NCBI RefSeq assembly: GCF_028714775.1
Contig: NZ_JAQTLS010000001.1
Coordinates: 186,001 to 250,000, forward strand
Direction of reading: 5' to 3'
DNA from: Thiothrix sp.
GTDB lineage: Bacteria > Pseudomonadota > Gammaproteobacteria > Thiotrichales > Thiotrichaceae
DNA length: 64,000 nt
The translations under genes were made by a program, and so were the position numbers. The notes under the pieces were generated by a model. The model did no database searches. It saw only the letters and a list, made by a program, of their open reading frames with translations, and had not been told where the DNA came from. Position 1 is the first letter of the stretch; the number at the start of each line of letters is the position of its first letter. Shown here piece after piece: positions 59,647 to 62,765 of this stretch.

Positions 59647-60348
59647 TTAAATCGAAATATAGCGCCAGCCATCACGCATGTGTTGCACCACAAATTCGAC
59701 CGCAGACGGAACAACTTCGGCCTCATCCACCAAGGCCACCAATTCACCGCGCTGCTTAAAGGAATACAGGGTATTGCTGCACGCCACGAAGCGCAGATGC
59801 GGATAGGCGTGGCTCATGTGCAGGATGCGGCCTTCGTGCTCGGACGTGCCCAAACGCAGTAAATCAATGCCATCCGCACTGGTCACAACATAAACACTGC
59901 CATCCTTATCCGCCACTTGCGCAGCGAGGTTTTCGGCCTTACTTAAGGCTTTTTCCAGCTTGACGGGTTCGTGTGAATCCAAGAACACAATGAAACGGTT
60001 ATCGTGTGCCGCAGATGCTCCTGCCAAGGCGACGCCTTCCGGTTCCCACCAGCGTGGCAAGTATTGGCTACCAGCGCCTGCAAGGAAAGTCAGGGCAAAC
60101 GCCAACACATACACCGCCGCCCGTTGCCAAACCTGTGGACGGTAGCGGGCAACAGCAACATTACTCGCCGAGGGCAGCGGGTAAGCTGATTGCACCAAAT
60201 GTTTGAGGCGCTGGATTTCACACAGCTCCTTTTGCAAACCCAAGTCGGTTTCCAGCAACGCCAGCACGTCGCGGCTTTGCGCGGCATCCAATTGCCCATC
60301 GGCAAAAGCGTGCAGCATTTCATTGGCAGAATATTGTTCTTGTTTCAC
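59647..60348 (-). CDS. Transmembrane anti-sigma factor with C-terminal DsrE-like domain
   Basis: The 233-residue protein has three parts. Residues 1-55 are an anti-sigma-like cytoplasmic region (MLHAFADGQLDAAQSRDVLALLE) without a zinc motif. Residues 77-97 form one membrane helix. Residues 117-233 read like the DsrE/DsrF sulfur-carrier fold: RFIVFLDSHEPVKLEKALSKAEN split over strand and helix, GIDLLRLGTS, LRFVACSNTL with C190 at the usual reactive-cysteine site, and EVVPSAVEFVVQHMRDGWRYI. The topology would put this domain in the periplasm. The GTG start overlaps the sigma factor's stop (GTGA), with AAGGAG upstream, so the two are coupled. The DsrE call is from pattern memory and would need a profile search. 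Confidence 0.78.
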   Translation of the reverse strand: MKQEQYSANEMLHAFADGQLDAAQSRDVLALLETDLGLQKELCEIQRLKHLVQSAYPLPSASNVAVARYRPQVWQRAAVYVLAFALTFLAGAGSQYLPRWWEPEGVALAGASAAHDNRFIVFLDSHEPVKLEKALSKAENLAAQVADKDGSVYVVTSADGIDLLRLGTSEHEGRILHMSHAYPHLRFVACSNTLYSFKQRGELVALVDEAEVVPSAVEFVVQHMRDGWRYISI

Positions 60349-60884
60349 TTCACTCTCCTTAGATAGTGAACATTGTCCTGATTGCGCGTATTTTGCAGGC
60401 GTTTTTTCATCGTTTCCCGCGCACGGCTGAGGCGGCTCATGACCGTTCCTTGTGGAATGTCCAAAATCAGCGCCACTTGTTCGTAACTGCACCCTTCCAG
60501 ATCAACCAGCGTAATGACTTGGCGTTGCGTCAAGGGCAAAGACTCAATCGCCACTTGCACTTGCTCAATGATTTGGTGCTCAGAAAAACGCCGTTCCGGG
60601 CAATCGGTACACGTCAGCTCAATGTCGTCGATGTCCACTTCCGGCTTACGGGTGCGCAAGTATTCCATCCAACAATTGTGCATGATCTTGTATAACCACG
60701 CCCCCAAACGCTCCTCATCTTTGAGCTGATCTTGCTTTTCCAAGGCTTTGGCGAGCGTGTCCTGCACCAAATCATCAGCTAATGCGGGATCGCTGCACCA
60801 TGCCAAGGCCATGCGATGCAATCTGGGGCGGTGTTCCCCCAATTTATTGCCGAAGCGGTTAAAACGGAAATAGTGGCTGAACAT
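60345..60884 (-). CDS. ECF-type RNA polymerase sigma factor
   Basis: The 179-residue sigma-70 family protein has a sigma-2 region (about 20-80) with ADDLVQDTLAKALEK and WLYKIMHNCWMEYLR, and a sigma-4 region (about 112-165) with LPLTQRQVITLVDLEGCSYEQVALIL and GTVMSRLSRARETM. The ATG at 60884, with GGGGA upstream, gives the usual length; the frame extends upstream into the soxB spacer. It is the first gene of the sigma/anti-sigma pair and is divergent from soxB. Confidence 0.9.
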   Translation of the reverse strand: MFSHYFRFNRFGNKLGEHRPRLHRMALAWCSDPALADDLVQDTLAKALEKQDQLKDEERLGAWLYKIMHNCWMEYLRTRKPEVDIDDIELTCTDCPERRFSEHQIIEQVQVAIESLPLTQRQVITLVDLEGCSYEQVALILDIPQGTVMSRLSRARETMKKRLQNTRNQDNVHYLRRVK

Positions 60885-60929
60885 GCGTGTCCCCGGTATT
60901 TCATTGCTTATAGGATGCAGAAAGTAAAA

Positions 60930-60955
60930 AAATATTCCATAAATACGGAATATTT
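60930..60955. promoter_or_regulatory. Inverted repeat in the sigma factor/soxB spacer
   Basis: AAATATTCC-N8-GGAATATTT is a perfect 9-8-9 palindrome 45 bases from the sigma factor ATG and 64 bases from the soxB ATG. It resembles ArsR-type operators (ATTC...GAAT), the class that includes persulfide-responsive SoxR/SqrR/BigR. No such regulator is encoded in the window. Confidence 0.6.
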
Positions 60956-61019
60956 CGTTGGCTACCCCGTCATGCACCCATAGCGCACATCATAACGAAC
61001 CGTTTGAGGAAGAAAAGAA

Positions 61020-62765
61020 ATGAGTTTGACCCGCCGTGAGTTCCTGCAAATATTGGCAGCCGCCAGTGCCGTTGGTTTCGGGCTGAACACTGCTTTTGCG
61101 GATGATGCCAAACAAGAAGGTAGCAAAACCGACACCAAGGCCCCCACCAACCCGTATGAATTGCCCGCATTCGGTAATGTGTCAGTGATGCATTACACCG
61201 ACTGCCACGCACAATTGCTACCGATTTATTTCCGCGAACCTAACGTCAACCTTGGCCTTGGCAGCATGAAAGGCGTAGCCCCGCACTTGGTCGGCGAGCA
61301 CTTCCTGAAAAAGTACGGCATTGCGCCGGGTTCGATGGATGCCCACGCTTTCACCTATCTGGACTTTGCGGAAGCGGCGAAAAAATACGGCAAGGTCGGC
61401 GGCTTTGCCCACTTAAAAACACTGGTTGACCAAATCCGAGCGCAACGCCCCGGCAGTTTACTGTTAGATGGCGGCGATACGTGGCAAGGCTCATGGACAG
61501 CGCTGAAAACCAATGCGCAAGACATGGTGGACGCACAACTTGCCTTGGGTGTAAACGTCATGACCCCTCACTGGGAAATGACTTTCGGTGCTGACCGCGT
61601 GAAGGAAATCGTCGAGAAAGATTTCGCGGGCAAGATCGACTTCGTGGCGCAAAACGTGTTCAGCAACGACTTTGACGAGCGCGTGTTTGAACCGTTTGTC
61701 ATCAAGGAAATAAACAAGGTTCCGGTAGCCATTATTGGGCAAGCCTTCCCATATGTACCCGTTGCCAACCCCAAGCATTTAGTGCCTGACTGGAGCTTCG
61801 GCATCCGCGACGATGATATGCAGAAAGTGGTCGACGAAGCCCGTGGTAAAGGCGCGAAAGTGGTTATCGTGCTGTCCCACAACGGCATGGATGTTGACCT
61901 AAAAATGGCCAGCAAAGTCAGCGGCATTGACGCGATCATGGGCGGTCACACCCATGACGGCGTATTCCAACCCGTGGTGGTAGAAAACAAGGGCGGCAAA
62001 ACACTGGTTACGAATGCCGGTTCCAACGGCAAATTCCTCGGCGTGCTCGACCTTGATGTGAAAGATGGCAAAGTGGCGGATTACCGTTACAAATTACTGC
62101 CAGTCTTCTCCAACCTGCTCGAACCACACAAGGACATGCAAGCGCTGATCGACAAAATCCGCGAACCGTACAAGAAAGAATTGGCGGAAGAACTCGCCGT
62201 GTGTGACGACACTTTGTACCGCCGGGGCAATTTCAACGGCACATTCGACCAATTGATCTGTAACGCGCTGATGGAAGGCTTGGATGCGCCGATGGCATTT
62301 TCACCCGGCTTCCGTTGGGGCACGAGCGTATTGCCGGGGCAACCGATTACCTTTGAGCATGTGGCTGACCAAACCGCGATCACCTACGGCACGGTTACGC
62401 GCAATGAAATGTCGGGCGAGCAAGTCAAAAACATCCTTGAAGACGTGGCGGATAACCTCTTCAACCCTGACCCGTACTACCAACAGGGCGGCGACATGGT
62501 GTGCGTCGGTGGCCTGAAATTCAGTTTCGACCCCACCGCGAAGATGGGCAGCCGTGTATCCGACATGGAACTGGATGGCAAACCGCTTGACCCGAAGAAA
62601 ACCTATCCGGTCGCGGGTTGGGCGAGCGTGCAGGAAGAAGTGCCGAAGAATAAGCAAATCTGGGAAGTGGTCGCGGATTACCTGCGCAGCAAAAAGACCA
62701 TCGGCAAAGTGGAGCTGAACACCCCGAAATTGAAAAACGTGGATGGCAACGAAGGTCTGGCGTAA
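61020..62765 (+). CDS. soxB: Thiosulfohydrolase SoxB
   Basis: SoxB is the dimanganese hydrolase that releases sulfate from SoxYZ-bound S-sulfonate groups in the periplasm. The 581-residue protein has a Tat signal (TRREFLQILAAASAVGFG, about 4-21). The metal site is built from MHYTDCHAQ, GGDTWQGS, SHNGMD and GGHTHDG. A 5'-nucleotidase C-terminal domain follows. The start has GAGGAAG 8 bases upstream. The other sox genes are not adjacent, as is common in rDsr-type sulfur oxidisers. It is divergent from the ECF sigma factor pair. Confidence 0.96.
   Translation: MSLTRREFLQILAAASAVGFGLNTAFADDAKQEGSKTDTKAPTNPYELPAFGNVSVMHYTDCHAQLLPIYFREPNVNLGLGSMKGVAPHLVGEHFLKKYGIAPGSMDAHAFTYLDFAEAAKKYGKVGGFAHLKTLVDQIRAQRPGSLLLDGGDTWQGSWTALKTNAQDMVDAQLALGVNVMTPHWEMTFGADRVKEIVEKDFAGKIDFVAQNVFSNDFDERVFEPFVIKEINKVPVAIIGQAFPYVPVANPKHLVPDWSFGIRDDDMQKVVDEARGKGAKVVIVLSHNGMDVDLKMASKVSGIDAIMGGHTHDGVFQPVVVENKGGKTLVTNAGSNGKFLGVLDLDVKDGKVADYRYKLLPVFSNLLEPHKDMQALIDKIREPYKKELAEELAVCDDTLYRRGNFNGTFDQLICNALMEGLDAPMAFSPGFRWGTSVLPGQPITFEHVADQTAITYGTVTRNEMSGEQVKNILEDVADNLFNPDPYYQQGGDMVCVGGLKFSFDPTAKMGSRVSDMELDGKPLDPKKTYPVAGWASVQEEVPKNKQIWEVVADYLRSKKTIGKVELNTPKLKNVDGNEGLA

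Follow-up and report, generated by a model that had tools for sequence, protein, structure and literature searches.

In switches of the RseA/MucA type, the gene of an ECF sigma factor lies behind its own type of promoter and beside the gene of a single-pass anti-sigma factor that has an N-terminal sigma-binding-type segment. The Thiothrix locus described here is alike in these respects. It differs on the far side of the membrane, where the anti-sigma protein carries a DsrE-like domain with an invariant cysteine, and the similarity of its N-terminal domain to those of RseA and MucA is non-significant. To our knowledge, neither RseA nor MucA has a DsrE-like domain with a cysteine. The DsrE/DsrF-like proteins (MTH1491, ST0148 and DsrEFH) resemble the Thiothrix domain in sequence, fold and the position of the cysteine. 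Unlike these proteins, the Thiothrix domain is fused to an anti-sigma segment and is predicted to lie beyond the inner membrane, whereas DsrEFH works in the cytoplasm. The Thiothrix pair is a known kind of switch with a proposed new sensor.

Other regulators of sulfur oxidation have been described. ECF sigma2 and sigma7 control sox genes in Arcobacter butzleri, as established by transcriptomics, RT-PCR and mutant assays; in contrast to the Thiothrix locus, their regulons include nap and tct, the main text does not mention DsrE, and its accessible portion names no sulfur sensor (PMC3445524). RpoE1 and RpoE4 of Sinorhizobium meliloti are ECF factors that answer sulfite-generating compounds and drive periplasmic SorT. 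Here the signal is sulfite, and no DsrE domain is described in the available part of that paper (PMC3511301). In Hyphomicrobium, sulfane sulfur controls sox genes via the repressors SoxR and sHdrR with SoxT1B (PMC11582611, PMC10451225, PMC12423496). As far as the accessible text of these papers goes, this system consists of ArsR-type DNA-binding repressors with SoxT1B as a membrane signal unit, and has neither a sigma switch nor a DsrE sensor. The sox regulators that we found in the literature are thus a cytoplasmic-type repressor system (Hyphomicrobium) and ECF factors of unknown signal (Arcobacter), and a 2024 paper, in its available part, calls the sensing of external sulfur by sulfur-oxidation regulators poorly understood (PMC11582611).

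Full-text searches of an open-access library found no paper on a DsrE domain in an anti-sigma factor. The available parts of papers on Ifremeria and Riftia symbionts, Beggiatoa, and ECF/anti-sigma coevolution likewise contained nothing on DsrE anti-sigma factors. The original prediction that no regulator of this design has been described stands as far as these searches reach; the 2021 ECF reclassification may list such a group. We propose that the pair works as an ECF sigma/anti-sigma switch that turns on periplasmic sulfur oxidation and senses through the DsrE-like domain, and give this whole chain a probability of roughly 0.6 from sequence comparison. If true, a sigma switch with a sulfur-carrier-like sensor would couple periplasmic sulfur directly to transcription.

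The sigma/anti-sigma pair and its DsrE-like domain

The window, that is, the whole stretch of 64,000 nucleotides of Thiothrix sp. DNA that was analysed, contains the following features:

60345..60884 (-): ECF sigma factor gene, 179 aa, with Sigma70_r2 and Sigma70_r4_2
59647..60348 (-): gene of the anti-sigma factor, 233 aa from a GTG, with the DsrE-like domain at the C-terminus
60175..60336 (-): anti-sigma segment, about residues 5-58, weakly similar to the N-domains of MucA and RseA
60064..60120 (-): predicted membrane helix, about residues 77-95, from the hydrophobic segment and the positive-inside rule
59653..60003 (-): DsrE-like domain, about residues 116-232, from PDB matches, profile and model
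59779..59781 (-): codon of C190, cysteine in 90/90 fusions
60914..60938 (-): ECF-type promoter-like site facing the sigma gene, 30 nt upstream of its start codon, GGAATATT...CATC
60947..60971 (+): ECF-type promoter-like site facing soxB, 49 nt upstream of its start codon, GGAATATT...CGTC
61020..62765 (+): soxB, thiosulfohydrolase (TIGR04486), predicted target

The original prediction of an ECF sigma factor and a membrane anti-sigma factor divergent from soxB was borne out. In the short sigma protein, both Sigma70 domains exceed the Pfam cut-off, and TIGR02937 is matched at 90.8 bits against 42.9. The divergent gene is a true soxB, with 858.5 bits for TIGR04486 at a cut-off of 550. As the GTG start of the anti-sigma gene overlaps the sigma stop codon, translational coupling of the two genes is likely. 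Among named genomes, six relatives have 69-72% identity, five from Thiothrix and one from a gammaproteobacterial MAG.

The strongest hydrophobic 19-residue segment of the anti-sigma protein begins at residue 77. Pfam returned zero matches for the whole protein up to E 10, and thus none to DsrE (PF02635), and NCBIfam matches were all far below cut-off, such as PRK13920 (putative anti-sigmaE, E 1.8e-4, 21.2 bits versus 225). A phmmer search of the single protein against the PDB matched 1l1s (MTH1491) over residues 116-231 at E 1e-6, and in this alignment C190 falls in the aligned ACSNTL, opposite a cysteine. We built a profile from 43 fusions, picked from the 90 examined below and the window's own. 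Its C-terminus matched 1l1s at E 2.3e-22, ST0148 (2pd2) at E 7.9e-12, and 8uja, an engineered DsrE-like design, at E 9e-11. Positions 6-53 gave non-significant matches to MucA (6in7, E 0.13) and the RseA N-domain (8z6g, E 0.19), ranked behind unrelated proteins. Pfam searches of the 43 relatives at E 0.01 found DsrE PF02635 in 11, zf-HC2 in 7 and DUF3379 in 2.

The structure model of the domain alone (residues 112-233; pLDDT 77.5, pTM 0.72) has the element order E-H-E-H-H-E-H-E-H-E and places C190 as the final residue of the third strand, with a helix directly after it. The top PDB match of this model in Foldseek was 2fb6 (E 1.1e-4, TM 0.69/0.72), which is titled as of unknown function and which we take to be DsrE-like; 3mc3, a DsrE/DsrF-like protein, followed at E 1.3e-3. 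The model of the whole protein was poor (pLDDT 59.9) and its Foldseek matches were weak, the best having E 5e-3, with 2fb6, 3mc3 and 3pnx as the first three. By sequence homology and predicted fold, the C-terminal domain is DsrE-like, as had been proposed for residues 110-233.

Conservation of the fusion and its link to sulfur oxidation

A full-length fusion occurred in 65 of an even draw of 369 gammaproteobacterial genomes, the window's own included, with up to three copies per genome. The 90 fusions that we examined comprise 81 from this class draw outside the window's genome (on 79 stretches), 5 from other genera of the family and 4 from Thiothrix; partial and domain-only matches of the class draw were left out. 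In a family sample of 60 genomes, the full-length protein was present in 12 of 13 genomes of the same genus (own included) and in 5 of 47 from other genera, and the remaining matches at E 0.01 span the DsrE part only. Among 398 genomes of the phylum, drawn unevenly across families, no full-length fusion was found outside the class, the three full-length proteins all being in-class. In genomes outside the class (G624, G695, G790 and others), the profile matched from about position 60-120 to 240, a DsrE-like part that lacks the anti-sigma part.

We also made a quick tree from the 61 neighbouring stand-alone DsrE proteins and the domains of 45 fusions, taking every second of the 90. In it, one branch separates the two kinds (SH-aLRT 97). 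This suggests that the fusion had one origin. As the tree program cautions that the columns are few and that long branches meet, one origin is likely rather than proven.

C190, which had been expected to be conserved among orthologues, is a cysteine in all 90 fusions, and Trp228 is likewise a tryptophan in 90/90. C43 had appeared invariant in the first 17 sequences but is kept in only 62 of the 90. The motif HxxxCxxC, which marks the zinc-binding anti-sigma (ZAS) redox switch, is present in 0/90 fusions, and 18 of the 90 have one cysteine only and so cannot work by an internal disulfide switch. On these two counts we rejected an internal disulfide or zinc switch for the family. The single cysteine of the 18 fits a one-cysteine carrier that would be loaded with sulfur. 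A 19-residue segment with a mean hydropathy of at least 1.4 is present in 88 fusions, and K/R residues are commoner before the helix than after it in 88, with ties in 2. This positive-inside pattern supports the predicted periplasm-facing orientation, which means that the DsrE-like domain is apparently placed outside the inner membrane. The domain could have a structural role only, dimerising or positioning the protein, while the state of the membrane or envelope is read by proteolysis. Single-pass anti-sigma factors are often under proteolytic control, but this explanation leaves both the cysteine in 90/90 fusions and the sulfur genes as targets unexplained, and we regard it as very improbable.

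Nearly all genomes with the fusion also have SoxB. Calling SoxB at E 1e-100 and DsrA at E 1e-60, and counting genomes with partial fusion matches as fusion-free, we found SoxB in 64 of the 65 fusion genomes (63 when the curated cut-off is applied) versus 86 of the 304 others, and DsrA in 52/65 versus 65/304. All 65 fusion genomes had SoxB or DsrA, versus 97 of the 304 others; tests on these counts are uncorrected for kinship. As 86 of the 150 SoxB-bearing genomes have no fusion, the fusion switch is one way among others. These figures also bear on the idea of a thiol-stress sensor, in which an oxidant, an electrophile or a metalloid, for instance arsenite, would react with C190, and the cell would use the sulfur genes for repair or detoxification. 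The fusion has a single cysteine of reactive type, and the available part of a study of Thioalkalivibrio reports that DsrE/F-like genes, perhaps not of the same module, change under arsenite (PMC6620896). We nevertheless consider such a sensor improbable, as 64 of 65 fusion genomes have SoxB and the predicted targets in Thiothrix are core Sox genes.

Promoter-like sites in Thiothrix and the proposed switch

In 11 other Thiothrix loci, TGGAAT-N17-CRTCA is directed towards the sigma gene and TGGAAT-N16-CGTCA towards soxB, the two sites lying back to back at their -35 elements. In the window, the sigma side has GGAATATT-...-CATC and the soxB side (C)GGAATATT-...-CGTC; its variants are CATCC at the sigma site and a C that precedes GGAAT at the soxB site. 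Across 13 genomes of the genus, the pattern GGAATATT-N13/14-CRTC was matched 72 times, versus 8 times when read backwards. A second site, before soxY, DsrE or yeeE-sox, was found in 10 of the 12 fusion-bearing Thiothrix genomes. In eight (G001, G009, G022, G028, G045, G049, G053, G056), it lies 42-115 nt before a second soxY, which is followed by soxZ where tagged, a metallohydrolase in some genomes, and a stand-alone DsrE; in G015 it lies before a stand-alone DsrE. In the window's own genome, the site lies 47 nt upstream of a transporter gene of the YeeE/SoxT type (PF04143) that heads soxX-, soxY-, soxA-, soxY- and soxZ-type genes. This genome lacks the operon DsrE of Thiothrix, which is present in 8 of 10 congeners searched. 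A membrane protein gene follows the stand-alone DsrE in Thiothrix (L012 12993-13724(-), L188 6552-7319(+)), and the L012 copy matches DUF4395.

Three of the seven pattern matches in the own genome are those at sigma, soxB and yeeE-sox. Two others (C1:251896 and C15:51947) sit within long reading frames, one (C16:1832) lies between frames, and one (C20:28694) resembles a match in the fusion-free congener G034. A match in G040 has the same letters as that of G001, and in G058, of whose four other matches three were read in context, no sox gene was tagged around these three. G034 has soxY, soxA and soxB together; the stretches that surround its soxB and DsrE contain no site, and all three of its matches are elsewhere. 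A stand-alone DsrE-like gene is convergent with its soxB and directly after it (L255 3261-3740(-)). The soxB stretches of three further fusion-free genomes of the family (G003, G005, G007) have no site before soxB. Chance adjacency of the pair to soxB was rejected: the divergent pair of sites is kept in 11 other Thiothrix loci and the window, and the motif marks other sox genes. The expectation of sigma-type sites upstream of sox genes thus held for soxB and, in 10/12 genomes, for soxY, DsrE or yeeE-sox. We hold the regulon part alone, an ECF switch with predicted sox/dsrE targets, to be very probable.

Taken together, the placement of the domain, the predicted targets and the cysteine are most simply explained by a periplasmic sulfur signal. 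We infer that C190 takes up sulfur and thereby frees the sigma factor. When oxidisable sulfur is missing, the cytoplasmic anti-sigma segment would keep sigma at the membrane. Thiosulfate, polysulfide or sulfide chemistry would produce sulfane sulfur in the periplasm, with which C190 would be loaded, either directly or via a carrier (SoxYZ or a stand-alone DsrE). The loaded DsrE-like domain or its oligomer would change, and sigma would be freed by conformational change or proteolysis. Freed sigma would transcribe its own operon and soxB, as well as the soxY-DsrE operon in Thiothrix or a DsrE-porin operon in other genera. The induced proteins would consume the sulfur and so reset the switch. This mechanism makes sharp predictions as to C190, the motif, and soxB and soxY as targets.

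Neighbouring genes and a shared motif across the class

The sigma gene adjoins 89 of the 90 fusions, the exception (L175) being at a contig end. The commonest neighbour across the class, which the original prediction did not mention, is a stand-alone DsrE gene, found no further than 3 kb from 57 of the 90 fusions. There is none within this distance at the other 33, of which 28 have at least 2 kb of sequence on both sides. DsrE accounts for 60 of the 320 genes nearer than 2.5 kb and for 1 of the 539 further away. The N-terminus is hydrophobic over a stretch in 57 of these 61 stand-alone proteins, and the loop C-x-N-[ST] is present in 59. The Thiothrix protein P0003 matched PF02635 above cut-off, and another one that was tested fell just below. 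In the usual order, a porin and DsrE are divergent from sigma and the fusion; in other loci DsrE follows the fusion. The porin cluster was found in 32 loci with DsrE beside the pair (e.g., L156 1-1049(-)). Its representative matches Porin_O_P (E 3.3e-7), and Pfam gave no match for another member (L126). The Porin_O_P-like protein is possibly an uptake channel for a sulfur anion, and in the accessible part of a Beggiatoa paper, thiosulfate is suggested to enter by a candidate porin. On our proposal, the neighbouring genes for stand-alone periplasmic DsrE and porin gain a candidate role.

A true soxB as the immediate divergent neighbour of the pair was seen in Thiothrix. In three other families (L143, L151, L161), the pair has a SoxB-like neighbour that was not called SoxB, with 100.9 to 180.2 bits versus the cut-off of 550. 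These neighbours encode phosphoesterases of up to 724 aa (L151 3050-5224(-), L161 4494-6626(+), and L143 1-1362(-), cut by the contig end). These genes are divergent from the pair and have the same motif, and their genomes have a SoxB match elsewhere.

We enumerated pairs of 5-mers and 3-mers upstream of 85 sigma genes, excluding the four Thiothrix stretches. The top-ranked pair was GGAAT-N16/17-CGT, and the consensus of ECF-type promoters is GGAAY-N16/17-CGTC; the window's own sigma site ends in CATC. The form GGAA[TC]-N15-18-C[AG]TC occurs upstream of 67 of the 85 sigma genes versus 14 of 744 other genes, and Fisher tests on such counts ignore kinship. It also occurs upstream of 26 of 59 stand-alone DsrE genes overall. 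By orientation, it is found at 26 of 42 divergent genes (62%) and at 1 of 17 on the same strand, which can be read together with sigma. Among the other genes with the motif are the SoxB-like gene (L143, L151, L161) and, in loci that lack DsrE (L126, L140), the porin gene. Sulfur genes, which the original prediction placed near orthologous pairs, are present there as the DsrE genes of the 57 fusions, and also lie under the shared motif.

These neighbourhoods raise the question whether the DsrE-like domain itself reacts with sulfur. DsrE-type proteins assemble into oligomers, and the domain might be unreactive and bind a stand-alone periplasmic DsrE or SoxYZ, with the loaded or empty state of the partner deciding sigma release. 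As the commonest neighbour and a predicted target, the stand-alone DsrE is a candidate for such a partner, and the tandem loci described below have one on each side. The invariant cysteine suggests chemistry in the sensor itself, however, and a neighbouring partner DsrE is missing at 33 of 90 fusions, as is the operon DsrE in the window's genome. We therefore consider this explanation unlikely, if less so than thiol stress.

Returning to a sensor that is itself loaded with sulfur, the fusion may be a single ancestral invention and an undescribed sensor class of gammaproteobacterial sulfur oxidisers. The anti-sigma factor would join a periplasmic sulfur relay, receiving sulfur from SoxYZ and periplasmic DsrE or competing with them, and would read sulfur flux directly; genomes with several copies (up to three) may tell sulfur species apart. 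We put this wider proposal forward tentatively, at somewhat less than even odds.

Some loci have further arrangements. Two sigma/fusion pairs are in tandem at L130 5998-8952 and L136 5998-8884, flanked on either side by one DsrE, with a porin further out. This tandem, from two genomes of one genus, is a duplicated module. At L180 5470-8538, one sigma/fusion pair lies amid three stand-alone DsrE genes. Downstream of the fusion at L026 2425-2778 is an ORF in which FLSCLCGSE is repeated several times, and which looks like a translated CRISPR array.
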